Translations under genes and position numbers: made by a program | NCBI GenBank assembly: GCA_016463225.1 | Contig: JAEMRT010000018.1 | Location: 1 to 64,000, forward strand | Direction of reading: 5' to 3' | DNA from: Sphingopyxis sp. | GTDB taxonomy: Bacteria; Pseudomonadota; Alphaproteobacteria; Sphingomonadales; Sphingomonadaceae | DNA length: 64,000 nt | Shown here: positions 4,262 through 30,999 of the stretch, piece after piece | Layout of the letters: each line of letters opens with the position of its first letter | Numbering within the stretch: the stretch's first letter is position 1 | Notes under the pieces: generated by a model | What the model saw: the letters and a program-made list of their open reading frames with translations, nothing else | Database searches by the model: none | Told to the model about the DNA's origin: nothing

Positions 4262-4336
4262 GCGGGCGTAGCTCAGGGGTAGAGCACAACCTTGCCAAGG
4301 TTGGGGTCGAGGGTTCGAATCCCTTCGCCCGCTCCA
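4262..4336 (+). tRNA. tRNA-Gly (GCC)
   Basis: A complete cloverleaf: acceptor arms GCGGGCG and CGCCCGC pair perfectly, the anticodon loop CTTGCCAAG reads GCC, the T-arm contains GGTTCGAAT, and the 3' CCA is encoded. Its 3' half (from 4292) is the left copy of a 48-bp direct repeat whose second copy lies at 30952-30999, so this tRNA gene is the integration site of the neighbouring element. The tRNA remains functional because the element supplies the same 3' end. Confidence 0.97.
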
Positions 4337-4339
4337 GTT
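4292..4339 (+). repeat. attL: left copy of 48-bp direct repeat
   Basis: It runs from the anticodon stem of tRNA-Gly through the CCA and three bases beyond, and is identical to 30952-30999. Identity stops at 4340 (A here, T on the right). Tyrosine recombinases commonly use the anticodon-to-T-arm part of tRNA genes as their crossover site, so this is the likely att core. Confidence 0.95.
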
Positions 4340-4401
4340 ATTCACATGAAATTCAATAAATTAAGCGCAATGCATTGATTGCAACCCTATTGCCGTTGGC
4401 G

Positions 4402-11867: not shown

Positions 11868-11910
11868 CTTCGTCCCTTTCCGCTGCCCTTGACGCGACGT
11901 TGATTGTCAT

Positions 11911-11928: not shown

Positions 11929-11955
11929 AGAAAAAAACACTGGAGGGGAAGTACA

Positions 11956-14193
11956 ATGCACAAGCGCGTTCTTCTGACAATCATGCTGACGAGCGGATCA
12001 GTCCTGGCAACCACCGGCGCGCTTGCGCAGACGTCTCAACAAGCGGCGACGTCGCCGGGCCAAGCAACGTCCACGGAGGCGGAATCGTCGGCTGGCGAAA
12101 TCATCGTCACGGCGCAAAAGCGGGACGAACGTATTCAGGACGTTCCGATCGCGATCACCGTGGTCAACGCCGATGCCCTGAATGCTTCCGGCTCCAAGAA
12201 CCTGGTTGAACTCCAGGGTTTAACGCCCGGCGTCTTCATCCAAGGCAATGCGGGCTATGCCGGCTCACCGATCACGATTCGCGGCACTGCGGGCTCCAAT
12301 ACGGTGCTGCTGGACGACCCGGTCGCGATCTACATCAACGGAGTCTATCAGCCCTCGGGAAGGTTCGCCAGCAACGCGCTTCTCGATATCGACTCAATCC
12401 AGGTCGTACGTGGGCCGCAGGGGACGCTGCAGGGACGCAATGCGACGGCCGGTGCGATACTGATCGAGACGGCCGAGCCGGGCTCGTCGCTGAATGGCTT
12501 CATTCGCACGTCCTATGCCGACCCTTCCGAAATCCGCGGTGAGGCGGCGATCGGCGGGCCAGTCAGCGATACGCTGAGCGTGCGCGCCGCGGTTGGCTAT
12601 TATAACGAGAAGGGCTGGGGTCTGAATACCTTCAACAACCGGCCCATCGCCGGAGGGCGCGGTTTTTCGGCGCGCGGAACGCTGCGTTGGCGGCCGTCGT
12701 CGAATTTAAATGCCCGGCTGACAGTCTCGCATATCCGCACCTATGCAGAACCGGCGCTCGCTCGTTACGCGGCCACCACCTTCAACCCGTCGCCAATCGG
12801 CCCGCTGACGCTGGTCGCGACTCCGACCACGCCCTTGTCGCCGGCGGAACTAAATGCGCTCCAGCACGACCGCTACGCGCTCAACCGACCGACCTTCAGC
12901 CGCACCACCGATGACAGAATCTCGCTGGATCTCACCTACAACATCGGCGCTGTCGATCTCGTTTCAGTGACCGGCTACAATAAATATCATTTGGTGGGCG
13001 CTGCCGACTCCGATGGTTTTGCGCGCACTGATCGCGAGGGATTTAACACTGGCGACCTGCCGTCCAAATATTTCAGCCAGGAAGTTCGTCTACAGTCGAA
13101 TAACGACAGCAATATCAGCTGGATACTTGGCTCCTATTATTCGAGCGCGGTCGAGGACATGGCGTTCGTGATCAACAATCTGCAAATAACGGCGCCTGAC
13201 CGGCGGGTAATTGGTTTTGTTGTGCACCAGATTTCTCGGTCCTATGCGGGATTCGCCGATGCAACATTCCATGTGACACCGGAAATCGCGCTCCTTGGCG
13301 GCGTGCGCTATACGCGTGAAACGAAAGACTTCACGCTGAACCGGACGATCGTCAACTATGACACGGGTGCAACGCTTATTCCGGCGCTGCAATACACGCC
13401 GCCGCAGGGCGTGTTCACCAATACCTCTTTCCGCGCCAAGGCCACCTATCAGCCCAGCCGGAACCTGCTTTTATACGCGGGCTATAGCACCGGCTTCAAA
13501 TCGGGCGGCTTCAACGCGTTCGGTGACGATCCGGCATTCAGGCCGGAAAAGCTGCGGTCGGCGGAAGTCGGTATGAAGGCCGATCTTATTGACAGGCGGG
13601 CGACGGTGGCGCTGTCTGCCTATTCCAACCGCTATGACGATCTCCAGCTTAGCGCCGGCGTGCCCACCGGCGGCGTCGCCCTTACCAATGCGGCCAATTC
13701 CAAGATCGACGGTTTCGAGCTGGAGGGCATGTTCCGGCCAACGACGGACCTGACATTAATCGGCAACGTTTCATATACCAACGCTCGCTTCGCCAGTTTC
13801 ACCACGGCCGTTGACATCCAGGAGGCTCCTGTCGACGCCACCGGAAACAAGCTGCCGCACACACCCAAATGGCAATATTATGTCCAGGCGACCTATGCAC
13901 CCCGTCTAAACGATGATGTGACCGGTTTGCTGGAAGCGTCATACCGGTGGCACGGCCTCATATATCAGTACCATACCAACCAGACGAGCCCGACGCTGCA
14001 GGGGGACGCCACGGGCGAGCTGGGGATGCGCGCCGGTGTCACCCTCGAACAAAGCCAGATATCAATCACTGCGTTCGCGACAAATCTCACCAATGAGCGA
14101 GCGCCGAACAGCGTCAACATCACCTTCTCCTACCCGAACGTCAGCTTCAACAAGCCCCGCACGATCGGCATCCAGCTCGAAAAGAAATTCTGA
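11956..14193 (+). CDS. TonB-dependent outer-membrane receptor
   Basis: A 745-residue receptor with a signal peptide ([20 protein letters not shown], then GALAQ). A TonB-box region and plug follow ([40 protein letters not shown]), and then a beta-barrel ending in the aromatic residue of LEKKF. The plug type is that of the large sphingomonad family for siderophores, sugars and aromatic or plant compounds; the ligand is unknown. GGAGGGGAAG precedes the ATG. It heads a plus-strand unit with the cyclase-family hydrolase and probably imports the compound that this module degrades. Confidence 0.93.
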
Positions 14194-14215
14194 TTTCCTT
14201 TGTCGGAGAACTCCT

Positions 14216-15007
14216 ATGCCACGCCGTCTGATCGACCTTTCCATTCCCATCGAAAACGGCGTCGAGTCCGACCCGCCCGGCTCTGAGCCGAAAGTCGAAT
14301 ATTTCAGGCACACGGAGACGGCGGGCGAGCTTGTATCCTTCTTCCCCGGATTAACTGCCGAACAGCTGCCGGGCGGCGAGGGGTGGGCGGTCGAACAGCT
14401 CGATCTCAGCACACACAATGGCACCCATATGGATGCGCCCTATCACTTCCACTCGACCCAGGACGAGGCACTGCCAGGCGGCGGTCAGCGTTCGATGACG
14501 ATTGATGAGGTGCCTCTCGACTGGTGCTGGCAACCCGGCGTCAAGCTCGACTTCCGGCACTTCGAGGACGGCCATGTCGCGACGAGGGCCGATGTCGAGG
14601 CCGAGCTTGACCGGATCGGTCATACGCTACAACCCTATGATATCGTCGTCGTCAACACCCGCGCAGGCGGAATCTACGGCCAGAAAGGCTATGTTTCCGC
14701 AGGTTGCGGCATGGGTCGCGAGGCCACGCTGTTCCTCGCCTCCAGCGGCGTCAAGGTGGTTGGCACCGATGGCTGGTCATGGGACGCACCATTCGTCCAT
14801 ACCGCGAAGCGTTGGGCCGAGGGCGGCGATCCGTCCATCATCTGGGAAGGGCATAAAGCGGGCCGCGAGATCGGATATTGCCAGATGGAGAAGCTGCACA
14901 ATCTGGAAGTGCTGCCTTCGACCGGCTTCGAGATGATGTGTTTCCCGGTGAAAATCCGCGCGGCGGGCGCCGGCTGGATCCGCGCCGTCGCAGTAATCTA
15001 CGACTGA
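14216..15007 (+). CDS. Cyclase-family metal-dependent hydrolase (kynurenine formamidase-like fold)
   Basis: A 263-residue member of the cyclase/kynurenine-formamidase superfamily. The metal-binding signature [12 protein letters not shown] spans residues 67-78 (His67, His71, Asp73, His77), and the family start [12 protein letters not shown] is present. Members hydrolyse amides, esters or lactones, so the substrate here cannot be fixed; ring opening or lactone hydrolysis in a catabolic route fits the neighbours. It starts 22 bases after the TonB receptor stop with GGAGAA in front. Its 3' end overlaps the convergent tetR gene by 10 bases. Confidence 0.85.
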
Positions 15008-15657
15008 TGGACCGGGGGACCCAGCAAGGCTTCGAAAGCGGCGGCAACGATGGTTGCAACCCGCTGGGCCTGCGCTTCGACGTCGCTGGGCGGCCGCAGG
15101 TTGCCGTCCGGGGCACTGACGGCACCTATGGCCATGATCGTGACGCCGGTTGTGAGCAAATCTCGCACCTCGTCGCGGGTGCGGGCGGGATAGAGCTGAT
15201 GAAGGCTGTCGACGTATGTCTCGCGTACCGGCTTGACGATGTCTTCGAAGATCGCAATCGGCTGCCCCGGCCGTTCACCCTGCACCCGCGCCAATATGCG
15301 GGCATAGTGAAAACCGGTTGGGTTTGCCGCCACGGCAAAGCCCGGCTGGTAATAGTCGAACAGCAGTCGCTCCAATCGAGGACGACCCGCCACGTCGGCG
15401 GGGATCGCCTGGTGCCGACGGATCCGCTCTTGTTGAACGTCATGGATAAATGTGTCGATGACCGCGCGGAACATCGCCTCCTTCGATCCGAAATAATAAT
15501 GCGCCGACGCGATGTTGACGCCAGCCTCGCGTTGGATGGCGCGCTGGCTCGCGGCCGCGTAGCCGTGATCGGCGAAGTGCTTCACTGCAACCTCGATCAG
15601 GCGCGCGCGCGCATTCGCGCCGCTGGTCGATGGATCAGGAGTTTGGTCGGTGCTCAT
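14998..15657 (-). CDS. TetR-family regulator of the uptake/catabolic module
   Basis: A 219-residue TetR protein. The N-terminal domain (residues about 15-62) reads [19 protein letters not shown], then [21 protein letters not shown] recognition helices ([16 protein letters not shown]). The C-terminal ligand domain resembles the CerR-type C-terminal family. The start ATG is at 15657; the open frame extends further, into the intergenic operator. It is surrounded by the genes it should repress, and matching palindromes sit before its own gene and between the MFS and TonB-receptor genes, which suggests autoregulation with relief by the imported compound. Confidence 0.85.
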
Positions 15658-15685
15658 GGGCCTTATGTGGTTCGCGGCGCAGTGC

Positions 15686-15704
15686 TTGTCAATCACCTGA
15701 TAGA
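15686..15704. promoter_or_regulatory. Probable TetR operator 2
   Basis: TTGTCAATCACCTGATAGA lies between the tetR start (15657, minus) and the FAH-family start (15771, plus). It matches operator 1 in TCAATC and CTGATAGA. The dyad is imperfect (CTATCA on one strand, TGACA on the other). Confidence 0.6.
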
Positions 15705-15770
15705 CTCGTGCGTTCCGCGCGCCTTCACTCGACCCCAACTGCCACTGAAAATGTATGGCCTGGAGAGAAT

Positions 15771-17102
15771 ATGCCGATGACCATGCTCAATGCCACCCAT
15801 AACCCCGACCTGCTCTGCTGGGAGCCAACGGCTAATGGTGATACCGACTTTCCGATCCAGAACCTGCCGTTTGGCCGGTTCAGGCGTCCCGGGCGCGGGC
15901 CGCAAGGAGGTGTCGCCATCGGCGACAAGATCGTCGATCTGGCCGCGTTGCTCGAATTGGAGCTGCTCAAAGGGGACGCCGAGGCGGCGGCAAGAGCAGG
16001 CGCCGGCGATGATCTTCTGCCGCTTCTCCGGCTGGGAAACGGTCCGGCTTCGGCGCTTCGTGCTCGCCTGTCCGACTTGCTGTCCGAGGGCGGTGCTTCT
16101 GGGTTGCGCGAAGCGGCTGGTCGGGTGCTTGTCGCTCAAGCCGATGTCGAGATGCTGCTGCCGACAACGGTGCGGCAATTCTCGGACATGTGCGTGTCGA
16201 CCTTCCACATCGGACGGCGCAACGGTAACGACGATCGCGGCCAGCCGATTTGTCCCCCTGTCTTTCGAACGTTGCCCGTCGGCTATGACGGCCGGGCGAG
16301 TTCGATTGTGGTGTCAGGTACGCCGGTCCACCGCCCCAACGGGACGTGGCAGGAGAGCTTCAATGCCGGCGACCTGGCATTCGGACCTGAGCCGCGACAG
16401 GACTATGAGCTCGAGGTCGGGCTCTGGTTTGGCGGCGAAGGCAATTCGCGTGGTCAGCCACTATCGATGGCGCAGGCGAGCGATGCGTTATTCGGGATGT
16501 GCCTGCTGAACGACTGGTCGTCGCGCGGAATCCAGTTTTGGGAGACGATGCTCGGTCCGTTCCTCGGCAAGAGCATGGCGACAACGATCTCGCCCTGGAT
16601 CGTCACGGTTGAGGCTCTCGCGCCGTTCCGCGTCCCGGCCTTTGCGCGGCCTGCGGGCGATCCGCCGGTCCCGGCGCATCTCAACGAAACTGGAGACCAG
16701 CAGGCAGGCGGATTTGACATTGCGCTCACCTCGCGGCTGCAGACCAAGACGATGCGCGGCGCTGGCGTTTCAGCCCAGGCGATCTGTAAGACAAATTTTC
16801 GTCACATGTACTGGACTTTCGCGCAGATGGTTGCGCACCATGCCAGCAACGGCTGCTCGCTCGCGGCGGGCGATCTGCTCGGCAGCGGCACCTGTTCGGG
16901 GCCTGAAATGGCGGAGGCCGCATGTCTGGCCGAGAGCCTGGTTGCGGGTTCAGTGAAGCTGGACAATGGCGAAACGCGCGAATGGCTGGAGGACGGCGAC
17001 ACTATCGTCCTTGAGGGGCGGGCAATGCGCGATGGCTATGCCTCGATCGGTTTCGGCAAAGCGTCCGGGCAGATTATACCGGCGCCCGACTGGCCCACCT
17101 GA
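15771..17102 (+). CDS. Fumarylacetoacetase (FAH)-family hydrolase with altered substrate pocket
   Basis: A 443-residue protein aligned over its length with fumarylacetoacetase (GYDGRASSIVVSGTPVHRP; DYELEVGLWF; LLNDWSSRGIQFWE; GPFLGKSMATTISPW; GSGTCSGPE). Metal ligands are kept (Asp139, Glu213, Glu215, Asp248), as are the catalytic His146 and Lys267. Two tyrosines that contact substrate in mouse FAH, in DFYSS and QAWEY, are replaced by Cys141 and Thr259. It therefore probably cleaves a C-C bond in a different acylpyruvate or diketo acid. GGAGAGAAT precedes the ATG. The upstream extension of the frame to 15630 runs through the operator and is not used. Confidence 0.85.
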   Translation: MPMTMLNATHNPDLLCWEPTANGDTDFPIQNLPFGRFRRPGRGPQGGVAIGDKIVDLAALLELELLKGDAEAAARAGAGDDLLPLLRLGNGPASALRARLSDLLSEGGASGLREAAGRVLVAQADVEMLLPTTVRQFSDMCVSTFHIGRRNGNDDRGQPICPPVFRTLPVGYDGRASSIVVSGTPVHRPNGTWQESFNAGDLAFGPEPRQDYELEVGLWFGGEGNSRGQPLSMAQASDALFGMCLLNDWSSRGIQFWETMLGPFLGKSMATTISPWIVTVEALAPFRVPAFARPAGDPPVPAHLNETGDQQAGGFDIALTSRLQTKTMRGAGVSAQAICKTNFRHMYWTFAQMVAHHASNGCSLAAGDLLGSGTCSGPEMAEAACLAESLVAGSVKLDNGETREWLEDGDTIVLEGRAMRDGYASIGFGKASGQIIPAPDWPT

Positions 17103-19865: not shown

Positions 19866-21089
19866 TTGTTTCGGCCGGAAGTGATTTCTCATCGGGCGGA
19901 TCGGCTTTCGGGTGATGTTGCAGTTGCGATGCCGGTCGCGTGGCACGCTATCGGCTATCTTATATTCGGCGGTGTAGCGGCTGCGCTGATACTTCTATCC
20001 CTCGCGGACTATTCGCGTGTTGAAACGGTTGGCGGCGTTATCGTGCCCGATAAAGGCGTTTCTCTTATAACGCCGACGCGGGGCGGCATAGTTTCCGATC
20101 TTTCGGTCCACGATGGACAGACTGTTTCTGCTGGCGATGAATTGGCATCGATCCGTGTTGAGGAGGACAGCAGATCGGGCGTTTCAACAGGCACACAGAT
20201 CGAGGCCGCCGTCAGGCGCCAAGACGAAAGCCTCGCGTCTCAAATCAGCGCCGTCACGGCCTCCGCGCAGGCACAGGTCTTTCAATTGTCAGCGCAAAAA
20301 TCCGGGATATCAGCCGAAATACTGCAAATCCAATCCCAGATCGGTCTACAGCGTGACCTCGTGGCATCCGCGCAGCGAGATCTTGACCGGACGCGCACAG
20401 TTGCGGAGCGCGGCTTCATTAGCCAGCGTGATCTACAGTATCGGGAGGAAGCCCTAGTGTCGCGTCGGCAAGGGCTGGCGCAGTTCGTGCAAACGCTTGC
20501 CGCAAAACGCGCTACTCTCATTGAACTAGAACGCACCGCGGCCCAGATAATGGCTCAAGCGGATGCGCAGAAAGCGGGGCTAGCAGCGAGCCGGGCTGAA
20601 TTGGTGCAGCAGTCCGCAAACAATTCCGGCGCTCGATCCTATGTGTTGCGCGCGCCTGTTTCTGGACAAGTAACGGCTCTTACAGCGCGCGTGGGCCAGG
20701 TCGCGAACCAGCAGAGCGCATTGATGACGATCATCCCTGCCGGATCGAAGCTGCGCGCCGAACTCACCGTTCCAAGCGCTGCAATCGGTTTTCTTAAGCC
20801 CGGGCAAGAGGTCCGTCTTGCATTGGATGCCTTTCCCTACCAGCGTTTTGGGACAATCAGGGGCCAAGTGCTCACGGTCGCTAGAAGCGCGGTGAGCAAG
20901 CAGTCGGAAAGTGGAGCAACCACATTGGTTTACCCGGTAACGGTCGCGGTAGACCGCATCTATGTCGTCGCATTTGGCCGGAAGGAACCCTTGGTATCAG
21001 GCATGTCGCTGAGCGCGCGAATTGTAACGGAAAAGCAATCCTTGCTCCAATGGCTTTTTGAGCCCTTGTTTGCAGTACGGCGTCGCTAG
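19866..21089 (+). CDS. HlyD-family periplasmic adaptor (membrane fusion protein) of the RiPP exporter
   Basis: A 407-residue adaptor. It has one N-terminal membrane anchor (residues about 25-47, HAIGYLIFGGVAAALILLSL), a lipoyl/barrel start (VETVGGVIVPDKG; GIVSDLSVHDGQTVSAGDEL), a long coiled-coil hairpin (residues about 110-250), then the second half (SYVLRAPVSGQVTALTARVG) and beta-barrel. It links the inner-membrane ABC exporter to an outer-membrane TolC-like channel, which is not in this window. The start is a TTG at 19866; no good ATG precedes the anchor. Its stop is 6 bases before the ABC exporter, so the pair is cotranscribed. Confidence 0.87.
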   Translation: MFRPEVISHRADRLSGDVAVAMPVAWHAIGYLIFGGVAAALILLSLADYSRVETVGGVIVPDKGVSLITPTRGGIVSDLSVHDGQTVSAGDELASIRVEEDSRSGVSTGTQIEAAVRRQDESLASQISAVTASAQAQVFQLSAQKSGISAEILQIQSQIGLQRDLVASAQRDLDRTRTVAERGFISQRDLQYREEALVSRRQGLAQFVQTLAAKRATLIELERTAAQIMAQADAQKAGLAASRAELVQQSANNSGARSYVLRAPVSGQVTALTARVGQVANQQSALMTIIPAGSKLRAELTVPSAAIGFLKPGQEVRLALDAFPYQRFGTIRGQVLTVARSAVSKQSESGATTLVYPVTVAVDRIYVVAFGRKEPLVSGMSLSARIVTEKQSLLQWLFEPLFAVRRR

Positions 21090-21095
21090 ATCGTT

Positions 21096-23252
21096 ATGCT
21101 CGACTTTGGAATTATGAGCCGAGCGCGTGTGCGCCTCGTCCGTCAAACGGAGACAGCCGAATGCGGGCTTGCTTGCCTGACCATGGTAGCCAATTTTTAC
21201 GGGCTTGATGTTGATCTCGGCACGATGCGAAGGCGATTTGCGCCGTCTTTGCGCGGCGCATCACTGCGGTGGCTGATCGAACTATCCGACAAAATTGGTT
21301 TGATCCCGCGGGCAGTAAAGTTGCCGATCGAGGAATTGGCGTATCTTCATTCGCCCTGCATCCTGCATTGGGACATGAATCACTTTGTGGTGCTGGAGGG
21401 CGTCCGCGGCGGCAAGGCATTGATCCACGACCCAGACGGTCGTTCCATTTGGATGCCGATGGCTACGGTTTCGAAGCATTTTACCGGCGTCGCGCTCGAA
21501 CTTCGTCCCAGCGACAGTTTCGAAACCGGTCAGTATCGAGAACGCTTGAAGCTCCCGCAACTTTGGCGACGAATAACGGGAATGAAGCGGGCGCTCGCAC
21601 AAGTGCTGGTGCTCAGCGTTGTGCTTCAGGCGTTTGTGCTCGCGTCCCCCTATTATATGCAGGTCGCCATCGACCGGGCGTTGCCCGCGTTGGACAATAA
21701 TCTTCTGGCCGTTCTTGCATTAGGTTTTGGATTGTTCACGCTCATCGACGCGGGAGCTTCCTACCTCCGATCGCTTGCCCTGCTCGTCGCCGGCACTACG
21801 CTGGGTTACGGCATCGCCTCCAACATCGCGCGCCGCTTGTTCAGATTGCCTATCGATTGGTTCGAGAAGCGCCATACCGGCGATATCCTATCCCGGTTCC
21901 AATCGATCACGCCGATCCAGAATATGCTTACTCAAGGAGCCGTCGCAGCGATAGTGGACGGCACGATGGCGATTCTGACCTTGGCGCTGATGTTCTGGTA
22001 CAGCACTCTTTTGGCGATCATCGCCCTCGTCGCCTTCTCGCTATACAGCGCCGTGCGATTTGTCTCCTTTTCCTTTGAACGAGAAGCGCAGGAGGCGTCG
22101 ATCATCACTCATGGAAAGGAGCAGACAACCCTTATCGAAACTCTGCGCGGCATGACTACCTTGCGCCTATTCGGGCGAGAAACTTTGCGGCACGCAATGT
22201 GGCAAGCTCGCCTTACCGACGCTGTCAATGCTGACGTTCGAGTCGCGCGGATCCGTATTTGGCAAACATCTGCCAATATGCTCATTTTCGGAATAGAGAA
22301 CATTGTTGCCATCTGGCTGGCGATCGGTTTCGTGATTGACGGCTCGGGGTTCAGCATAGGCATGATCTTCGCGTACATGGCCTACAAGACGCAGTTCATC
22401 CAGAAAACCTCCGCGCTCATTGATCAGGGCATAGCCTTGAAAATGCTCGGACTCCATCTCGAACGGCTGTCGGATATCGCCTTGACGAAGGAGGACAAGG
22501 TCTTCGCTGAGAGCATGGACGTCCCGACGATGCTCAACGGCAAGATCGAGCTGAGAAGCATCTCTTATCGATATACTCCCAATGACCCGTTGGTTCTTGA
22601 GGGCGCGAGCCTGGTCGTTGAGCCGGGTGAACATATTGCAATCACCGGGTCGTCCGGCGGCGGAAAATCGACTTTGGTCAAACTGATCCTGGGCCTGGTC
22701 GAACCCGACGATGGAGAGGTACTTATCGACGATCTGACGTTGGCCCGATTTGGCTATAAGAACTTTCACAGCCAGGTTGCCGCCGTATTGCAGTTCGATA
22801 ATCTTTTCGCCGGCACCCTCGCGGAGAACATCGCGTTGTTCGACGACCAGATCGACATGGAACGCGTGAGGAGATCTTCAACTACCGCATCGATCCACGA
22901 CGACATCATGCGCATGCCGATGCAATACGAAACATTGGTAGGAGACATGGGGTCGACCTTGTCGGGCGGGCAGAAGCAGCGCGTGTTGCTTGCCCGCGCG
23001 CTCTACCGAGAACCCAAGATACTGGTGATGGATGAGGGAACCGCACATCTGGACATACGGCACGAGCAAGCCGTCAACGCAGCAATAGAGAAAATGGGAA
23101 TCACCCGGATCATCGTTGCGCATCGCCTGGAGACGATAATAGCCGCTTCAAGAATATTCTCCGTTGAAAACGGTAGGATTGATGACGTCACCGACAGGTT
23201 CGAAGTAACAAAGAGGCATATGCTTGGAAGGGAAATCCAGCACCCAGAATAA
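21096..23252 (+). CDS. C39-peptidase ABC exporter (PCAT) for double-glycine leader peptides
   Basis: A 718-residue three-part protein: an N-terminal C39 peptidase with Gln17 and Cys23 (QTETAECGLACL), His96 (MNHFVVLEG) and Asp112 (HDPDGR); six membrane segments (about 165-445); and an ATPase with Walker A GSSGGGKST (518-526), LSGGQ (622-626) and Walker B ILVMDE. All catalytic residues are present. Such transporters cut leader peptides after a GG/GA/GS site while exporting the core. The two precursor peptides downstream have leaders that fit this rule, so this is their likely maturation protease and exporter. Confidence 0.93.
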   Translation: MLDFGIMSRARVRLVRQTETAECGLACLTMVANFYGLDVDLGTMRRRFAPSLRGASLRWLIELSDKIGLIPRAVKLPIEELAYLHSPCILHWDMNHFVVLEGVRGGKALIHDPDGRSIWMPMATVSKHFTGVALELRPSDSFETGQYRERLKLPQLWRRITGMKRALAQVLVLSVVLQAFVLASPYYMQVAIDRALPALDNNLLAVLALGFGLFTLIDAGASYLRSLALLVAGTTLGYGIASNIARRLFRLPIDWFEKRHTGDILSRFQSITPIQNMLTQGAVAAIVDGTMAILTLALMFWYSTLLAIIALVAFSLYSAVRFVSFSFEREAQEASIITHGKEQTTLIETLRGMTTLRLFGRETLRHAMWQARLTDAVNADVRVARIRIWQTSANMLIFGIENIVAIWLAIGFVIDGSGFSIGMIFAYMAYKTQFIQKTSALIDQGIALKMLGLHLERLSDIALTKEDKVFAESMDVPTMLNGKIELRSISYRYTPNDPLVLEGASLVVEPGEHIAITGSSGGGKSTLVKLILGLVEPDDGEVLIDDLTLARFGYKNFHSQVAAVLQFDNLFAGTLAENIALFDDQIDMERVRRSSTTASIHDDIMRMPMQYETLVGDMGSTLSGGQKQRVLLARALYREPKILVMDEGTAHLDIRHEQAVNAAIEKMGITRIIVAHRLETIIAASRIFSVENGRIDDVTDRFEVTKRHMLGREIQHPE

Positions 23253-23456
23253 AGCAAACGCACGCAATATTTCAAATATTATATCACCAGAGACTCGTAG
23301 GTATCATATTTACGAGTTAAATATATTTTTCTCTAATTCACTACTTTCCAATGTGGATGATTCTATACTTGTATCGAATCGCTATGTAGGTCATCTTCAT
23401 TGGCGTAGGGCATTCGCATTCTCTAAGAATGATCTTACATCTAGAGGAGAGTAAAC
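23253..23456 (+). promoter_or_regulatory. AT-rich leader region of precursor A with candidate terminator hairpin
   Basis: This 204-bp AT-rich gap contains the inverted repeat ACTCGTA/TACGAGT (23293-23317, 11-base loop) followed by a T-rich run, a possible weak terminator for the exporter transcript. A second dyad, CATTCTCTAAGAATG (23417-23431), lies 25 bases before the precursor start and may fold in its 5' leader. The precursor ribosome site is GAGGAGAG. A separate promoter for precursor A is likely in 23318-23420, but I cannot define its boxes. Confidence 0.4.
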
Positions 23457-23633
23457 ATGGGCAAATATGTTCGTCCTTTTTCAAGAGTGGCCGCAGTCGA
23501 ACTGAAAGACTGCGAAATCGATACCGTTAATGGCGGCGGCGGCTTCGGAAACGACGCCCCCGCCAACACGGATGTCTATACGAATATCCCGAATTCCGAA
23601 GCATGGAAATACGACGGAAGCCACCCCGACTAG
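23457..23633 (+). CDS. RiPP precursor peptide A (graspetide-like)
   Basis: A 58-residue peptide. The leader VELKDCEIDTVNGG fits the double-glycine rule exactly (Val at -4, Ile -7, Glu -8, Leu -12 from Gly27). The predicted core starts GGFGNDAPANT and ends WKYDGSHPD. The core is rich in Thr/Ser (Thr38, Thr42, Ser47, Ser55), Asp/Glu (Asp33, Asp39, Glu48, Asp53, Asp58) and one Lys51, the donor and acceptor residues used in ester or amide rings made by ATP-grasp ligases. A strong ribosome site (GAGGAGAG) precedes the ATG. It is directly followed by a hairpin and the ATP-grasp gene. An alternative cleavage after Gly29 is possible. Confidence 0.8.
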   Translation: MGKYVRPFSRVAAVELKDCEIDTVNGGGGFGNDAPANTDVYTNIPNSEAWKYDGSHPD

Positions 23634-23675
23634 ATATTTTATCCCAAAATCAGAATTTGGATTGCATATAGAACT

Positions 23676-23706
23676 GGGGCAGTTTCTGAGAAATTGCCCC
23701 ATTTTT
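23676..23706 (+). terminator. Intrinsic terminator/attenuator between precursor A and its ligase gene
   Basis: The stem GGGGCAGTTT pairs with AAATTGCCCC (one G-U pair, five-base loop), followed by ATTTTT. Placed between a strongly translated precursor and its enzyme gene, it would let only part of transcription continue, giving a high precursor to enzyme ratio. Confidence 0.7.
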
Positions 23707-23734
23707 AACCGCATAATCTTCAGTCAGGTGACCG

Positions 23735-24871
23735 ATGCCCGGGCGCGACATCTTAATATTTACCAACAGCTTGGACACGCATGCATGCGCGGTCGAACGC
23801 GTGTTGCAGATCCGGGGCGGCAATCCCATCGTGATAAATACTGCCCATCTGATGGTCGGAGAATCCGTATCCGCAAGATATTCGGAGGGCTGTACAAAAA
23901 TCAGGATGGGAGGATTTGAAGGAACGTCAGCCGATGTTCACTCCTCATGGAACAGGCGTTTTAGCAAACTATTCTCGTTGCCAGAGAATTTGCATCCGGC
24001 AGATAGAACATTTGTCCGAAATAACACCCAGTCGACGCTGACCGGTTTCTTGGGGCTGATCGATGACAGATTTCCTGTAAACCCGCTGGCCTCGGCGCGA
24101 TACTCGTCCAACAAGCTATTGCAATTGCAAGCTGCGAAGCGCGCGAATTTCCTTGTGCCAGAGACGCTGATATCGAACCATATAGGGGATATCAGGGGAT
24201 TTATCGACGCCGTCGGGGACGCTTGCGTGAAGCCGTACCACTCGCATGGATGGAAGACCGACGATGGCGTGTTTCAGGCTTTGACAGTTCGCATAGGAAA
24301 GGATGATGTATTTGATGCATCTGCCTTCGAAATATCCCCGCATATCTATCAGGAATATGTAAGAAAAAAAGAAGAGTATAGGGTAACAATATTCGGAAAC
24401 TTCTCTGCGGCAGTAAGAATAGATTCTCAGTCTCTCGATGATCAATCGAGCGTCGACTGGCGATCCTCTCCACAATATACGAGCACTCTCGAGCCTTGCG
24501 AGCTTCCACCTGACGTCATCAACTCACTAAAAAAAGTTCTAGTGAGCCTTGGACTTCGATTTGGCACTTTCGATCTGGCCAGAAATGCCGATGGAGAATA
24601 TGTATTCTTCGAAGTAAATGAGGCGGGCCAGTGGCTTTGGCAGGAAATGCACTGCCCCGATTGCAGAATTTTGCAGCCTTTCAGCGAGTTTCTGCATTGC
24701 GCGAGCGATGATTTCTCATGGGAACCATCCAGGCGCAGTCGTGAATGCGACGCGGTCGAGGTGCTGAAAAACCTCAGAAGCGACCCACGGTTCAACGGCC
24801 AATCTCCCGACGACTATCCCGACGAAGAGGTCCATGTTAGTGACGAGCGGGTTCAGAATGGAGACGGTTAA
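23735..24871 (+). CDS. MvdC/MvdD-like ATP-grasp peptide ligase A
   Basis: A 378-residue ATP-grasp protein of the RiPP-maturase type. It has the N-terminal half with SSNKLLQLQAAKRANFLVPE (residues 124-143, as in microviridin ligases NKLLQLQ..), the nucleotide-binding VKPYHSHG (165-172), the EEYRVTIFG strand (213-221) and the metal-binding C-terminal EVNEAGQWLWQE (293-304), whose Glu and Asn coordinate Mg. Known relatives activate Asp/Glu side chains as acyl phosphates and close omega-ester or omega-amide rings. It follows precursor A by 101 bases, with AGGTG before the ATG. The last 65 residues are polar and acidic. Local GC is low, suggesting recent acquisition. Confidence 0.87.
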   Translation: MPGRDILIFTNSLDTHACAVERVLQIRGGNPIVINTAHLMVGESVSARYSEGCTKIRMGGFEGTSADVHSSWNRRFSKLFSLPENLHPADRTFVRNNTQSTLTGFLGLIDDRFPVNPLASARYSSNKLLQLQAAKRANFLVPETLISNHIGDIRGFIDAVGDACVKPYHSHGWKTDDGVFQALTVRIGKDDVFDASAFEISPHIYQEYVRKKEEYRVTIFGNFSAAVRIDSQSLDDQSSVDWRSSPQYTSTLEPCELPPDVINSLKKVLVSLGLRFGTFDLARNADGEYVFFEVNEAGQWLWQEMHCPDCRILQPFSEFLHCASDDFSWEPSRRSRECDAVEVLKNLRSDPRFNGQSPDDYPDEEVHVSDERVQNGDG

Positions 24872-24917
24872 AGGATATAGAGAGCGCCCGCAACACCTCC
24901 GCTTTGAGCCGGTGGGT

Positions 24918-25916
24918 ATGACGCGCCCTTTTGGTCCCTTGCTTCAGGAGCCGCGAGAGCCGACCCGAAGCGGGCGCCGCGCGCAGTTGGTGCTGATACT
25001 GGGTAGTGCTATGCTGGCATCCTGCACGAATATGCAAACTAGCTCCCCCCCTCCTCCGCTTGTGGCATACGCGCCCAGGAAATCCGAGTCTTCACCCTCG
25101 GTTCGGGGGTGGGAGCAAGTTGCAGCGCTTCAGCCTAGATTTGTCGTGTTCGGCGAAATTCACGGAACGAAAGAAGCGCCACTTCTCTTCGGACAACAGG
25201 CTTCTGCCCTTGCGGCCCAGAACCAACGCGTGCTGATCGCCGTCGAACTAGGCGCGATTTACAATAGGCAGGTCCAGAAAGCCTGGAACGGGCCGCATGC
25301 CACCTTCGAGCAGTCGTTGACCGCGGCCGGATGGGCCGGTGGCCGTGACGGAACAAAGAGCGTGGCAATGCTGGAAATGCTCTCGCGGCTTCATCGGCTG
25401 AAGGAATACGGAGCAAGACTCTCCGTTGTGGCCTTCAACGGTGCCAGGGACGATGCGCAGGCGAGCCGCCTGAAGACACTAAGCAGTGCTGCTGGCCACG
25501 AGGAAGCACAGGCAGAAAATATCATTGATGCCGCTAATGCCGACAATTTCGATTATGTGCTTGTTCTCGTCGGCAACGCCCATGCGCGGAAGAAGGAAAT
25601 TGATCGCTTCGGCGATCAGTACCGACCGATGGCCATGCTACTGGAGCGGGCTGGCAAGACCGTGTCTTTGAACATGGCGTGGTCGAGTGGAACGGCTTGG
25701 AACTGCATCCTGAAGGCCGGGGTCCGCCCCCCCCCTAAGAAACCTGTTACAACTGATATGCTGAATTGCGGCAATCAGCCAGAAGCAGGACAAACCAATA
25801 GAGACAACTTGCCATATATGTCCCTTGGGCGACTGCCCGAAGATACCGATGGCGACAGTTTTGACGGTTACTTCTGGCTTGGCACGATATCCGGATCACC
25901 GCCCGCTCGACCTTGA
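24918..25916 (+). CDS. ChaN/EreA-like lipoprotein 1 of the RiPP locus
   Basis: A predicted lipoprotein of about 332 residues. It has a basic N-region, then LVLILGSAMLASC with the lipobox Cys at 36. The mature part carries FGEIHGTKE (GEIHGT 79-84) and LVLVGNAHAR (GNAHAR 219-224), the two histidine motifs typical of the ChaN/EreA-like (TIKI/TraB-related) fold. Its family includes heme-binding ChaN and erythromycin esterase. The cysteines in AWNC and LNCG may pair. The start is uncertain: the frame opens at 24834 inside the ligase gene, and ATG 24858 is also possible. It is paralogous to the gene at 26525. The role (immunity, tailoring, surface receptor) is unknown. Confidence 0.7.
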   Translation: MTRPFGPLLQEPREPTRSGRRAQLVLILGSAMLASCTNMQTSSPPPPLVAYAPRKSESSPSVRGWEQVAALQPRFVVFGEIHGTKEAPLLFGQQASALAAQNQRVLIAVELGAIYNRQVQKAWNGPHATFEQSLTAAGWAGGRDGTKSVAMLEMLSRLHRLKEYGARLSVVAFNGARDDAQASRLKTLSSAAGHEEAQAENIIDAANADNFDYVLVLVGNAHARKKEIDRFGDQYRPMAMLLERAGKTVSLNMAWSSGTAWNCILKAGVRPPPKKPVTTDMLNCGNQPEAGQTNRDNLPYMSLGRLPEDTDGDSFDGYFWLGTISGSPPARP

Positions 25917-26079
25917 GAAGTTTGGTCCAATTTGGCGGCAATTATCGAAAAGATTCGAATTCCAAGCTTCTTCTAAGGCCAAGGCGCTCTGCCACGCGAT
26001 AGTCGACCCAACAGACGCTTGACTTCGATTGTGCTCAGCCGCACCATCCTCGCGTCAGCCCTCCCAAGGAGTTAATTCA

Positions 26080-26517
26080 TTGAAACAGGGGATGCTTCTG
26101 GCGCTCATTTGCTCGCTGACGGCCTGTTCCGAGGAAGCGCCACCGCGCAAGAGCGACACGATATTTTTGGCCGAAGAAAAGACCGACGACCAGAGCTGCG
26201 CGATGGTTACGGCCCACGCGCCGGGAGGCAGCGCGATTTCGGTGCCTCATCGCTTCTGCGACGGATGGGAAGGCTTGTCTTGCGGCAATGTCGTGGTTGC
26301 GCGTGCGAAGGGGGGCGCGAAGGTCGAGGGCTTCGTGACTGGACCCGAATTCGCGTCCGAAGTCGATCTCAAGCGCATCGAAGCCATAGCATCGCCGGAT
26401 TTCGAAACGCTTCAGGTCGAATGTGCAAAAAACGGCGTGAAGCTCAAGGTCAACGGCGCAGGCGATACGTTTCGTGAAATAATGGTCGAAAAGACTGGAC
26501 GCATAGCCTTCTTATGA
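26080..26517 (+). CDS. Small cysteine-rich lipoprotein of the RiPP locus
   Basis: A predicted 145-residue lipoprotein of no family known to me. The signal peptide MKQGMLLALICSLTAC ends in a lipobox (LTAC). The mature domain has four more cysteines (SCAMV, RFCDGW, LSCGN, VECAKN), probably two disulfides, and looks beta-rich. I favour the TTG at 26080, with AAGGAG 8 bases upstream; ATG 26092 is the alternative. It lies between the two ChaN/EreA-like genes, 7 bases before the second, so it is in the same transcription unit. Confidence 0.6.
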   Translation: MKQGMLLALICSLTACSEEAPPRKSDTIFLAEEKTDDQSCAMVTAHAPGGSAISVPHRFCDGWEGLSCGNVVVARAKGGAKVEGFVTGPEFASEVDLKRIEAIASPDFETLQVECAKNGVKLKVNGAGDTFREIMVEKTGRIAFL

Positions 26518-26524
26518 AACCCTT

Positions 26525-27310
26525 ATGCTGCCGATGACCGCTCGCAGAGTTCATTTCGCCGGAGCCTTGCTGCTCGCAACATGCGCGGCCTGCGCACCGA
26601 TTGAGCCGCCAAATATTGGCCCGTTTGCACCGCCCGAGCCACAGGTGCTGGTCGTCGGGGAGATACATGGAACGCAAGAAGCTCCTGCTTGGTTCGAAAA
26701 GGAAGTCCGCCGTCTCGCCGTCGACGGCAGACGTCTTAGCGTAGGACTTGAGCTCTCGAATGCCGATCTTGCGTCGGCGTGCCCTGCATTAGCAGCACGG
26801 AGTGCGCAAGGACGGTGGTTCGATGACGTCCAGGACGGGCGCACAAGTCAGTCAATGGCGGGCCTTGCCTGTGCGCTGACCAAGCTTCAGGACGAACGAA
26901 AGATCAAGCTGTTTGCTCTAGTAGACGACAGCAAGCCCTTGCCGCGAGCTCAACGATACGCTGGAGTCATACGCGAAAATCTGACCACGCCCGGCTCGAC
27001 CGCGCTTGTCCTTGCGGGCAATTTGCACGCCCGACATGTTCCATCGTCAATGACCGGGATCTTGGAGACTGCGGGGATCTCTGTTCGGACCGTGACGGTC
27101 TCCTCAGCCGCGACCGGAAAAGCATGGACTTGCAATCAGGACAGTACGTGCGGCGTAGCGCCAATTGATAGCCTATTCTGCCCGGTAACTAACAGCAATC
27201 GTAGATATCCGGAATATATCGCCGATGTCAGCGGTCGTTGGAACTATTGCCTCGTTTTCCCTACACTGACACCGTCGTTGCCCTTGGCGAATAGAATTGT
27301 CCCTCAATAG
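26525..27310 (+). CDS. ChaN/EreA-like lipoprotein 2 of the RiPP locus
   Basis: A 261-residue predicted lipoprotein, paralogous to the product of 24918-25916. The signal peptide with a lipobox ends in LLLATC (Cys20) or AAC (Cys23). The motifs VVGEIHGTQEAP (GEIHGT 45-50) and LVLAGNLHAR (GNLHAR 165-170) repeat the paralogue's pattern, as does the KAWTC cysteine segment. The C-terminus has further cysteines (TCG, LFC, NYC). Two His-motif lipoproteins in one RiPP locus suggest one partner per precursor. Function is inferred only from context. Confidence 0.7.
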   Translation: MLPMTARRVHFAGALLLATCAACAPIEPPNIGPFAPPEPQVLVVGEIHGTQEAPAWFEKEVRRLAVDGRRLSVGLELSNADLASACPALAARSAQGRWFDDVQDGRTSQSMAGLACALTKLQDERKIKLFALVDDSKPLPRAQRYAGVIRENLTTPGSTALVLAGNLHARHVPSSMTGILETAGISVRTVTVSSAATGKAWTCNQDSTCGVAPIDSLFCPVTNSNRRYPEYIADVSGRWNYCLVFPTLTPSLPLANRIVPQ

Positions 27311-27339
27311 GCGCCGCGATTTCGTTCGCTGCAAAATGC

Positions 27340-27391
27340 TTCCGTATTGGATTTATTTCCGTATTGACAACACTTTGACCGAAAGTAAATC
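27340..27391 (+). promoter_or_regulatory. Candidate promoter of precursor B with direct repeat
   Basis: TTGACA (27364-27369) and TAAATC (27386-27391) are spaced 16 bases apart, a plausible sigma-70-like promoter. The sequence TTCCGTATTG occurs twice, 17 bases apart (27340 and 27357), and the second copy overlaps the -35 box, as an operator might. Confidence 0.4.
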
Positions 27392-27455
27392 AAGGCGCTG
27401 CGGCTTTAAGCTGGCTGCATAACCAAGGGTGCCATTTTAGAGGGATTCTTTGCAA

Positions 27456-27647
27456 ATGACCGATACGTCACGAATATTGAGCCGTCGAACCGCCGGACGT
27501 GAACTGACCGATTCCGAAATCTCAAAGATCGCAGGGAGCGGCGGCTTTAGTCTTCCCGGAACCTTCAGCCCCGATTCCATGACCTATGTGGGCTCGGAAG
27601 GGAACGTCAAATATTATGAACCCGATGACTGCACGTCCGACATGTGA
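27456..27647 (+). CDS. RiPP precursor peptide B (graspetide-like)
   Basis: A 63-residue peptide (65 if the TTG at 27450 is used; AGAGGG lies upstream of both). The leader segment RELTDSEISKIAGS mirrors that of precursor A, with Ile at -4, Ile -7, Glu -8 and Leu -12 from a Gly-Ser site. The predicted core therefore also starts GGF (GGFSLPGTF). It is rich in Ser/Thr (Thr36, Ser38, Ser41, Thr43, Ser47, Thr60, Ser61) and Asp/Glu (Asp40, Glu48, Glu55, Asp57, Asp58, Asp62). A segment TYVGSEGNVKYYE resembles TNIPNSEAWKYD of precursor A. The next gene is ATP-grasp ligase B. Confidence 0.78.
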   Translation: MTDTSRILSRRTAGRELTDSEISKIAGSGGFSLPGTFSPDSMTYVGSEGNVKYYEPDDCTSDM

Positions 27648-27655
27648 AGTGAACG

Positions 27656-27684
27656 GCAGTCTCCGGGATTGATCCGGAGACTGC
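27656..27684 (+). promoter_or_regulatory. Perfect 11-bp hairpin between precursor B and ligase B
   Basis: GCAGTCTCCGG and CCGGAGACTGC pair perfectly around a seven-base loop, 9 bases after the precursor stop. No T-run follows, so it is not a classic terminator. The 3' arm contains GGAG, the best ribosome site for the ligase gene, so the hairpin could hide it and limit ligase translation unless opened by coupling. Confidence 0.6.
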
Positions 27685-28812
27685 TTGCAGTTGAGTTCTC
27701 ACTTGAAAAAAATACTAATTCTTTCCCACAAAGGCGACTATCACGCGGCTGCTGTTTCTTGGGCATTGGCCCATTTGGACATAGAGGCCACGATCTGGTG
27801 TTTGGCGGACCTCCCTGATTATGGAACGATTTCGATCTTGTTCGAAGACGGCGGTGTCAGGACGACCCTGACAAATCGAAGCTTACAGATTGCGCTCGAT
27901 GATTTCGGATTTGTCTGGAACCGGCGTATCGAGAAGCCAGCCGCACCGCCAGCAAGTCACCCTGACGACATAGATGTCATCGAAAAGCAAAATCTTCATT
28001 TCATAAACGCGTTCCGCGGCACGGCATCAATAGCGATACCAACGACAAATCCAGTCATTTTCCAGGATCAGGCGAACTTCAAATCCGTTCAGCTTGAGAA
28101 AGCTCTTGAAGCTGGGCTGAATGTCAAGCCAACAATCATCTCGAACAATTTCGACGATGTCGTTCTCTTCCAGCGGCGCCACGGAGCGGTGATTCATAAA
28201 CCATTGAAGTTCCATGGTTGGCGCGAAGAGGGCCGTGTGTTCGGCGCTTACACAGCGGCGACGCCGGGTCTGACCGAAGAAGATCGCTTTTCGGTGGAGG
28301 CTGTCCCACTGATCTACCAAACGCTGGTCGATGCGGCGTATGAAGTTCGGCTCGTCTGTTTCGGCGATCATTTTGTCGCGTGCGGCTTCAAAGATCGGTC
28401 TGGGGATAGGAATGTCGATCTTCGGAAAAGCCTGCATGAGCACGCCGTAGAATATTTCGATGTCGAAGTGCCCGAAGGCACCCTCGCTAATTGCCGGAAA
28501 TATATGCGTTCGATGGGATTGAGTTACGGCGCATTCGACTTTCTCATCGACCAAGAGGGAGCGTGGTGGTTTCTCGAGTGCAATGAATCCGGACAATTTC
28601 TCTACCTCGAAGCGGTGCGGCCGCAGGTTCCTGCCCTTCGTACCTTCTGCTTCTGGATTTCCGAGGTGATAGGCGCTGCAATTGATCGCACCGATCCGCG
28701 CCTCGCTGCTTTGAGCATCACTGCATTTGAAGATGCCGGAGGGCGCGATCTTGCGCGCAAGATGACCGAGCACAACAAGCAGGTCAATGTTCCCCTTGCG
28801 GCGCAATCGTGA
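27685..28812 (+). CDS. MvdC/MvdD-like ATP-grasp peptide ligase B
   Basis: A 375-residue ATP-grasp ligase, a divergent paralogue of ligase A. KKILILSHKGDYHAAAV begins the first domain, FVWNRRI (residues 76-82) matches the VWNRR segment of MvdC/MvdD, QANFKSVQLEKALEAGLNV (129-147) the substrate-adjacent helix, HKPLKFHGW (171-179) the nucleotide site, and FLECNESGQFLYLE (296-309) the Mg-binding end. It probably crosslinks precursor B. The start is unclear: TTG codons at 27685, 27691 and 27703 are all possible and no ATG is suitable. Confidence 0.85.
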   Translation: MQLSSHLKKILILSHKGDYHAAAVSWALAHLDIEATIWCLADLPDYGTISILFEDGGVRTTLTNRSLQIALDDFGFVWNRRIEKPAAPPASHPDDIDVIEKQNLHFINAFRGTASIAIPTTNPVIFQDQANFKSVQLEKALEAGLNVKPTIISNNFDDVVLFQRRHGAVIHKPLKFHGWREEGRVFGAYTAATPGLTEEDRFSVEAVPLIYQTLVDAAYEVRLVCFGDHFVACGFKDRSGDRNVDLRKSLHEHAVEYFDVEVPEGTLANCRKYMRSMGLSYGAFDFLIDQEGAWWFLECNESGQFLYLEAVRPQVPALRTFCFWISEVIGAAIDRTDPRLAALSITAFEDAGGRDLARKMTEHNKQVNVPLAAQS

Positions 28813-29112: not shown

Positions 29113-29409
29113 TTATCCTCCCGCCCCTTCGGAGGCCAACATCACGGTTAGAATGCCGAACGGTGATGAAGGATTGCTAGCACCAAAGTCATAAACAAGC
29201 TCATCGCCATCGAATGCCATGGCCAGGCACGTCCCGAAGAGGTCAAAAGACCTGGGTGTCTCGGCTCCAAGGTGCCAACCGCCCATTTCCGACGCAATGA
29301 TGTCGGTAATCGCGCCTCTGAGTTGAGGGAGGTTGAAGTCGGGCAGCGACCGAACACTCTCGGTCACTATGAAATTGTCGAATGGTTCATATTTGGGGCG
29401 CTCCCTCAT
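29113..29409 (-). CDS. Hypothetical protein coupled to integrase, DUF3768-like C-terminus
   Basis: A 98-residue protein whose ATG overlaps the integrase stop (ATGA), so it is translated with integrase. The N-terminal two thirds is unrecognised. The end, FGILTVMLASE, resembles the DUF3768 protein at 9663-10031 (RLLTVMLAAEY), and the DNA there is also similar (both contain GCCAACATCACGGT). It may be a partner or control factor of the recombinase, or a truncated and diverged DUF3768 member. Confidence 0.55.
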   Translation of the reverse strand: MRERPKYEPFDNFIVTESVRSLPDFNLPQLRGAITDIIASEMGGWHLGAETPRSFDLFGTCLAMAFDGDELVYDFGASNPSSPFGILTVMLASEGAGG

Positions 29410-30788
29410 CTGACGGCTTTGCCCGCGTGCGCTAACAGCGCCTCGCGCTGTTCTTCATTCAGAGGCGCGTTCGCTTCCAGCGCCTCTAACGCTGCTGCAA
29501 GGATCTCAGCTCCGTCGCTCACATCGTTTTCTTTGGGGTTCAGAAGATCCGTTGCCCATAGCGCAAGTGCGCGCCTTTTCTCCGCGCCATAGCCATACAG
29601 ATCATAGCTCGCCCGTAGACCCTTGATGGCATGTCCGAGCACCATTTCTGCCACATGGGCATCGACCTCGAGCCGGGAGAGATGGGTGCGCACCGATCGA
29701 CGAAAATCGTGAAGCGCAAATCGCGGTATCGGTCCGCCGAGGATTTTCTCAGCATTCTTATGCAACTGGTCAATGATTTTGCGCGGCACGCCGGCGATGG
29801 GCTTTTCGCCGTTTGTGGTCGAGAGCATGAAGTCGCCTTCATTCCATCGGGTCAGCGACTGAATCACGGATATCGCCTCAATAGGAAGGCAAACAAGGAA
29901 ATGGCGACCGGACTTGTAGTGTTCGGGTGGAACGATCAACTCCGCCTTTTGCACATTGAGCCAAGGCCAGCGCGCGGCGCATATCTCCATCTCGCGGCAA
30001 CCAGTGAGCATCAGTAGCCGGACCGCTTGGCCCCACGGCTCCCGCATGTCATTTGCTGCCGCCCAAACGGCACGGGCTTCATTCATGCTGAGATACCGTT
30101 GACGAGTCCCGAGTTTCGGAGCTTTCACCTTGGCGAAGGGGTTCGCCTTTGCTCGGCGTTCATCAATCCCCCATTGGAAAAGCAACGAACCCCACTTGCG
30201 CACTTCATTTGCGGCTCCGTGGCGCCGTACCGTAATGCCGGTGTCTGGGTCCGGGATCCCCCTCGCTATCTTGTCGATCAACGCTTTTGCGTCGCTGTCC
30301 GTAACACCGCCCGCTGGCTTTTCGCGCCATGCCGAAACGATATGTCGATTGAGCATCCATTTCGCATTGCGCCAAGATCGCATTGATCGTTCGGCATAGG
30401 CCACATAATCATCGACCAGTGCTGCGACGGTATCCCTCTTGTCGACGGCATTCTCTTCGAAGTCGGCCAGCGGATTCCTGCCCGCCGCGGCGTCGTCTGA
30501 ATAAGCAGCCGCCTTCCGCCGCGCTTCCTTGATCGGCACATCGGGATAAGTTCCGAGACCTACTCGGTGATAGCGACTGCCGTTGAGCTTTGTCCCGCGC
30601 TCCGTGATCCCGCCTTCGCCGCGAACCCTGAACCTAAATGTCCACGTCGGGCGCCCACGAGGGCCGACACGCAAGGTCAACCCATCAACCGTTCCATCCT
30701 TCAGTTCGACGCGCTCGCTGGGTGGGTGATCCAGCAAAGCGCGCAAGCGGACGTCGGTCAGTTTCCTATTCGCGGCGCGTGTCGTCAT
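29406..30788 (-). CDS. int: Tyrosine integrase of the element
   Basis: A 460-residue phage P4-like integrase. It has an N-terminal arm-binding domain (residues about 1-110, VDGLTLRVGPRGRPTWTFRF), a core-binding SAM-like domain (about 118-215), and a catalytic domain with Arg in MLTGCREMEI, HDFRRSVRTH, HAIKGL and the nucleophile Tyr in ASYDLYGY. All active-site residues appear intact. The gene reads away from the right attachment site, as usual for tRNA-targeting elements. The 160 bases between its start and the attR repeat hold its promoter and the 20-bp arm-type repeat. It should catalyse integration at tRNA-Gly and, with the AlpA-like protein, excision. Confidence 0.93.
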   Translation of the reverse strand: MTTRAANRKLTDVRLRALLDHPPSERVELKDGTVDGLTLRVGPRGRPTWTFRFRVRGEGGITERGTKLNGSRYHRVGLGTYPDVPIKEARRKAAAYSDDAAAGRNPLADFEENAVDKRDTVAALVDDYVAYAERSMRSWRNAKWMLNRHIVSAWREKPAGGVTDSDAKALIDKIARGIPDPDTGITVRRHGAANEVRKWGSLLFQWGIDERRAKANPFAKVKAPKLGTRQRYLSMNEARAVWAAANDMREPWGQAVRLLMLTGCREMEICAARWPWLNVQKAELIVPPEHYKSGRHFLVCLPIEAISVIQSLTRWNEGDFMLSTTNGEKPIAGVPRKIIDQLHKNAEKILGGPIPRFALHDFRRSVRTHLSRLEVDAHVAEMVLGHAIKGLRASYDLYGYGAEKRRALALWATDLLNPKENDVSDGAEILAAALEALEANAPLNEEQREALLAHAGKAVR

Positions 30789-30951: not shown

Positions 30952-30999
30952 TTGCCAAGGTTGGGGTCGAGGGTTCGAATCCCTTCGCCCGCTCCAGTT
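30952..30999 (+). repeat. attR: right copy of 48-bp direct repeat (orphan tRNA-Gly 3' end)
   Basis: Exact copy of 4292-4339: the 3' part of tRNA-Gly with CCA but no 5' half. It marks the original 3' end of the tRNA gene, pushed away by integration. Chromosomal sequence resumes at 31000. Confidence 0.95.

Follow-up and report, generated by a model that had tools for sequence, protein, structure and literature searches.

What does a locus make that joins two graspetide-type ligases to one peptide exporter, and how would its host withstand the products? The locus lies at 19866–28812 of a 64,000-nucleotide stretch of Sphingopyxis sp. DNA (assembly GCA_016463225.1, contig JAEMRT010000018.1, positions 1–64,000), which we call the window. 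A sequence-only reading had described an HlyD adaptor, a C39-ABC exporter, two precursor and ligase pairs and lipoproteins between them; all are there, with open and intact open reading frames (ORFs). Two of the three lipoproteins are erythromycin-esterase-like in predicted fold and active-site residues, a more unusual feature than the two modules. The locus is real, and two graspetides most likely leave through one pump. The full reading, an acquired graspetide island with two cognate modules, one exporter and ring-opening esterase-like lipoproteins as self-protection, has in our judgement about an even chance of being correct. The genes and two intergenic hairpins (z from minimum free energy, MFE) follow one another in this order:

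19866..21089, forward strand: HlyD-family periplasmic adaptor of the exporter (Pfam HlyD_3, 78.5 bits, above cut-off)
21096..23252, forward strand: C39-ABC exporter with an N-terminal C39 (double-glycine) peptidase (Pfam Peptidase_C39, ABC_membrane and ABC_tran above cut-off)
23457..23633, forward strand: precursor A, 58 amino acids (aa) (ORF; double-glycine (GG) motif and upstream AGGAG by eye; hairpin 3' of the gene)
23675..23706, forward strand: hairpin and T-run between precursor A and ligase A (intergenic MFE z -3.5; terminator-like site)
23735..24871, forward strand: ligase A, graspetide-synthetase-type ATP-grasp enzyme, 378 aa (Pfam ATPgraspMvdD above cut-off)
24834..25916, forward strand: lipoprotein 1, erythromycin-esterase/ChaN-like (lipobox LASC, Cys near 25023)
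26080..26517, forward strand: small lipoprotein, about 145 aa, lipobox LTAC (ORF 26029–26517; signal and lipobox from about 26080)
26525..27310, forward strand: lipoprotein 2, second erythromycin-esterase/ChaN-like protein
27456..27647, forward strand: precursor B, 63 aa (ATG at 27456; ORF open from TTG 27450)
27655..27685, forward strand: hairpin between precursor B and ligase B (intergenic MFE z -3.7)
27685..28812, forward strand: ligase B, graspetide-synthetase-type ATP-grasp enzyme, 375 aa (TIGR04187, 162.9 bits)

The two esterase-like lipoproteins have the predicted fold of Ere/BcR135 and equivalents of the catalytic residues E47/H50/E78/H289. In lipoprotein 1, whose listed ORF shares 38 bases with the end of ligase A and carries its signal peptide and lipobox further in, the quartet is E64, H66, E94 and H206 (numbering from 24966); the first three were placed by profile alignment, and H206 was matched to H289 by motif order and invariance only. 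The spacing of the first catalytic pair is off by one residue, E-x-H against the E-x-x-H of EreC. The lipoproteins further differ from erythromycin esterase EreC (6xcq, 6xcs) in being smaller and 13–14% identical to it, in carrying a lipoprotein signal and in lacking a match to PF05139. They share the superfamily fold and the GE.H motif with ChaN of Campylobacter jejuni (2g5g), and ChaN is itself a lipoprotein. Against the ChaN model PF04187 they score 14.1 and 14.8 bits, under its gathering score of 27.7. Lipoprotein 2 had no match among plasmids, and the small lipoprotein had none in Pfam or NCBIfam at E 0.1. A solitary ChaN-like homologue (G079:C47:47684-47800, in L139) gives a weak PF05139 match (E 6.5e-4, under cut-off), which adds to the ties with erythromycin esterases. 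Another protein (P0227, 477 aa) has a ChaN/erythromycin-esterase-like part (PF04187, 20.2 bits, under cut-off) fused to DUF6624 (46.4 bits).

Both ligases are of the MvdC/MvdD or graspetide-synthetase ATP-grasp family, as the sequence-only reading proposed, and their EVNEAGQ and ECNESGQ motifs are intact. Ligase A scores 31.1 bits against Pfam ATPgraspMvdD and ligase B 16 bits (cut-off 27); on TIGR04187 they reach 168.7 and 162.9 bits (cut-off 350). With the MvdC and MvdD models both are far above noise, yet under every curated cut-off. Neither reaches that of NCBIfam MvdC, MvdD or SAV_5884, which places them outside those named subgroups. In single-sequence searches each matches the same five solved proteins, every one of which bears the name of a graspetide-type or MvdD-like ATP-grasp ligase. 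The nearest to ligase A are 5ig8, 7m4s (AMdnB), 5ig9, 7mgv (CdnC) and 9bou, and thus include CdnC and the microviridin-type ligases 5ig8 and 5ig9, which we take to be MdnB and MdnC; the nearest to ligase B is 9bou, followed by 7m4s. A joint profile adds 7drm. It is highly improbable that the enzymes are RimK or glutathione-synthase-like rather than peptide macrocyclases: RimK-family NCBIfam models match them weakly (27.8 and 12.7 bits), but the graspetide-ligase models score far higher for both. A check for affinity to ATP-grasp enzymes outside the ribosomally synthesized and post-translationally modified peptides (RiPPs) returned PDB matches of the graspetide type exclusively, and GG precursors and a C39 exporter adjoin the ligases.

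Are the two modules copies of one another? The ligases are 28% identical. Protein searches found 89 other matches for ligase A (best 62%; the window's own ligase, P0001, is left out of this count) and 49 for ligase B (best 38%). In a tree of 107 rows, built from locus ORFs of 330–460 aa only and selected homologues, ligase A falls in a clade of 32 rows and ligase B in one of 12, each with support 100; the latter also holds the ligase of Sphingomonas sp. 28-63-12 (locus L041). Given the low identity and the separate supported clades, we reject tandem duplication of one module. The same two points, and the predicted cores of the precursors, which have no pattern in common by eye, make the suggestion of two related peptides weak. 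Microviridins have a single precursor that is modified by two ligases; in the window a separate precursor gene goes with each ligase.

Each ligase gene is preceded by a short precursor gene with a GG-type leader and a core containing Thr/Ser/Lys and Asp/Glu. The leader of precursor A ends in ELKDCEIDTVNGG and is followed by a core of 29–31 aa, depending on whether the cut falls after the first or the second GG. Precursor B has the leader MTDTSRILSRRTAGRELTDSEISKIAGSGG and a core of 33 aa. A strict leader pattern (RVLaRxxAxELTxEExxxVsGG type) is found in 23 leaders from 18 of the 61 other loci examined. A profile was drawn from 23 leaders outside the window and run against its 705 ORFs; precursor B ranked first (E 0.0005). 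The earlier assignment of both as GG-type precursors is supported, less firmly for A, where it goes by position and motif only. The hairpin upstream of ligase A may be an attenuator or an mRNA-stabilising element. The one after precursor B extends to position 27685, where the listing of ligase B begins, though this gene may in fact start further on. Seven of 17 precursor–ligase intergenic regions in relatives have z <= -2 (mononucleotide shuffles), which is no more than suggestive.

The C39-ABC exporter has intact ECGLAC, Walker and LSGGQ motifs (by eye), and its top NCBIfam model is the NHLM transporter TIGR03796 (463 bits, under its cut-off). Together with the GG leaders, the Pfam domains and motifs point to double-glycine C39 export. 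The locus has a single C39-ABC/HlyD set, which supports the earlier proposal of one exporter for both modules; from this we infer shared export. The two modules may also form one functional unit, a two-peptide graspetide, a possibility that we consider doubtful but that is compatible with the island reading. By analogy, a two-component lantibiotic has a pair of precursors and a pair of modification enzymes with a single C39 exporter, and an identical layout of two precursor–ligase pairs with one exporter is found in Legionella feeleii (L018). However, of the 43 loci found in a scan of named genomes, 18 have a strong homologue of the exporter, and in 17 of these only one ligase is seen.

The Legionella feeleii locus also bears on how unusual the arrangement is. 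Like the window, it has two precursor–ligase pairs, one HlyD and one C39-ABC exporter; unlike the window, its accessory gene encodes a HEAT-repeat protein and both ligases fall in one mostly Legionella clade. Thus the two-module, one-exporter arrangement arose elsewhere too, and we reject the idea that it is unique to the window. L. tunisiensis (L025) retains broken pieces of such a locus. Section 7 of PMC8939145 describes C39 exporters and HlyD beside graspetide ligases, and section 7 of PMC13097080 places an NHLM-type transporter in groups 2, 8, 14, 16, 18, 20, 21 and 23. The combination, for which the sequence-only reading knew of no described group, is thus not without parallel. The published loci, as given in Table 1 of PMC8939145 and in section 7 of PMC13097080, share an MvdC/MvdD/SAV_5884-type ligase, a GG-leader precursor, a C39-ABC exporter and HlyD with the window. 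Unlike them, the window has two modules of different ligase clades beside a single exporter, and a pair of esterase-like lipoproteins. PMC8939145 also includes loci that have two ATP-grasp genes in its count of microviridin-like loci. Searches of open-licence papers, for the most part at the level of title and abstract, showed no two-module graspetide locus with separate precursors and no tested graspetide esterase.

What, then, would the lipoproteins do? We searched 396 genomes of the order with the ligases, taking E <= 1e-15 as strong. Among the matches listed, 18 genomes have a strong match; two more (G083 and G131, at 2e-12 and 4e-12, with internal stops) were left out of the strong set, and the other matches listed among the 263 genomes cover short segments (about residues 109–172) judged glutathione-synthase-like. 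An esterase-like homologue is the next gene downstream of the ligase in L086, lies upstream of it on the same strand with a precursor in between in L041, and is about 4.6 kb away in L091. The genomes that have both kinds of gene, the window's own left aside, hold four esterase-like genes, two of which are no more than 6 kb from a ligase; if genes were placed at random, this would have P 0.00065 (the limit having been chosen after the fact). In a lipoprotein tree of 120 rows (homologues outside 240–340 aa dropped, two rows trimmed), the five locus copies are scattered, requiring five changes, at least three of them forced, so that recruitment to ligase loci seems repeated.

The lipoproteins might instead be ordinary sphingomonad ChaN-like periplasmic proteins, binding haem or peptide or acting as envelope esterases, that sit in the locus by chance with no role towards the peptides. 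We find this unlikely, as two divergent copies are interleaved with two modules, the predicted fold is closer to EreC than to ChaN, and both the co-localisation elsewhere and the failure of the locus copies to form one clade speak against it. The solitary copies in non-producers fit acquired resistance and are also compatible with an unrelated role. Since most homologues are solitary, we reject a graspetide-specific ChaN family. A universal pairing of ligase and esterase-like gene in the order is likewise rejected by the ligase genomes that have no homologue, counted below.

Maturation is a further alternative: the lipoproteins could act on exported peptides outside the cytoplasm, by trimming them, opening a selected ester or rearranging their rings, and so yield the active form. 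Esterase-like genes lie close to those of the ligases in L086, in L041 and in the window itself, which would suit such a role. Section 6 of PMC8939145 reports a distant homologue of erythromycin esterase (cluster 575) in branch 4 loci of gammaproteobacteria, and proposes additional modification or host resistance as its role. We judge maturation quite improbable here, because homologues in genomes that have no strong ligase suit immunity or an unrelated role better, and most other ligase genomes examined have no homologue. The cluster 575 loci resemble the window in combining a precursor, an ATP-grasp enzyme, a double-glycine peptidase and an erythromycin-esterase relative. They occur in other bacteria, and the window has two esterase-like lipoproteins and two modules; the likeness is drawn from the description in section 6.

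We return to the reading in which the lipoproteins open peptide rings outside the cytoplasm, against which several results weigh. Precursor A ranks third of the 705 ORFs by leader profile, with E 1.2, which is not significant. Neither esterase-like lipoprotein matches PF05139 at E 0.1, so they may work like an Ere enzyme though not filed as one. Profiles of the family searched against PDB sequences gave just chance-level rows and no Ere or ChaN match, so that only fold and profile alignment carry this link. Long branches make the tree placement of lipoprotein 2 and of the L086 and L091 copies unsure. An esterase-like homologue is present in 38 of the 396 genomes, 33 of which have no strong ligase, and is missing from 13 of the 18 strong-ligase genomes; a search of 13 further ligase genomes, run with no positive control, found it in none. 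Among 20 solitary neighbourhoods inspected, only three genome pairs have neighbours in common.

In the mechanism that we propose, the island would have been gained horizontally. Each ligase would recognise the leader of its own precursor, whose gene lies immediately before it, and close side-chain ester (or amide) rings in the core, and the hairpins 3' of the precursor genes would probably keep the ratio of precursor to enzyme high. The single C39-ABC/HlyD exporter would cut both leaders after the double glycine and export both peptides. The two esterase-like lipoproteins, anchored outside the cytoplasm, would hydrolyse the ester rings of returning peptides and so protect the producer, plausibly with one lipoprotein matched to each peptide. 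The computation establishes what the genes are, the predicted fold with its catalytic-type residues, and the integration; ring formation, the pairing of each ligase with its precursor, export by a common pump and immunity through ring opening are deduced from these.

The lipoproteins may thus provide a concrete immunity proposal. Graspetide self-protection is merely suggested in section 6 of PMC8939145 and in section 7 of PMC13097080, where peptidases are named as possible resistance genes. If the lipoproteins do open peptide rings, they would represent a concrete graspetide immunity mechanism, an evolutionary relative of macrolide-ring esterases and a handle for genome mining of bioactive graspetides. 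The two-module layout makes the two-peptide idea directly testable. A more far-reaching possibility, which we consider doubtful, is a two-peptide graspetide whose producer is guarded by extracytoplasmic lactone-opening esterases, with Ere relatives repeatedly recruited as immunity proteins and solitary copies in non-producing sphingomonads serving as acquired resistance to the graspetides of neighbours.

Was the locus acquired? The earlier suggestion of an integrative element is confirmed by a tRNA gene, direct repeats of its 3' end, an adjoining integrase and a sporadic distribution:

4262–4336: tRNA-Gly
4292..4339, forward strand: left 48-bp direct repeat (3' part of tRNA-Gly and three bases beyond; identical to 30952–30999)
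29406..30788, reverse strand: tyrosine integrase of the island (Pfam Phage_integrase and Arm-DNA-bind_3 above cut-off)
30952..30999, forward strand: right 48-bp direct repeat, adjoining the integrase

A 25-bp part of the repeat has two copies in the window, against 0 expected by chance, and matches at two further sites in the genome. The GC fraction in 2-kb steps is 0.51–0.62 at 4–30 kb, 0.60 across the right edge and 0.63–0.71 outside. A relative (G438) has both flanks, the left one with tRNA-Gly at 94% identity and the right one at 93%, and at this tRNA-Gly site about 4.3 kb of other sequence (L190, about 1247–5520) separates them, indicating that the island is absent there. Across 80 genomes of the genus, ligase matches of the strength of A and B occur in one, the window's own; three others (G456, G236 and G420) have weaker matches to shorter or more distant ligases, which were not used. 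The contig is 66,671 bp long, and the assembly's completeness of 96.17% and contamination of 7.17% leave a small doubt about the assignment of the contig to the genome. At 10614–17102 the island also carries genes for an MFS transporter, a TonB-dependent receptor, cyclase-family and FAA-hydrolase-family proteins and a TetR regulator, possibly a catabolic set.

The genes beside graspetide ligases vary by lineage. In Legionella-type loci (L009, L018, L036 and L038) a secreted HEAT-like protein of about 320–355 aa follows the ligase (Pfam HEAT_2 above cut-off only in L018, under it in the other three), and L011, L017 and L022 have genes of similar appearance. DUF6624 is among the ligase neighbours in L012, L026 and L030. 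PMC13097080 (section 7), a 2026 survey that adds 19 groups to an earlier 24, finds DUF6624 highly frequent in four groups. In other genomes of the order, an M28 peptidase (L083:7444-8442) and a JmjC/cupin protein (L090:10548-11777) lie near graspetide-type ligases. A 2.9-Mb genome of the order (G006, family f6; for example L085, L086, L087 and L154–L156) has seven ligase matches, among them two adjacent ligases and one locus that also has an esterase-like gene. A different RiPP-like arrangement is seen on a Croceicoccus marinus plasmid (L141; L175 is probably the same record), where a 237-aa protein adjoins a ligase that is shorter, at 316 aa.
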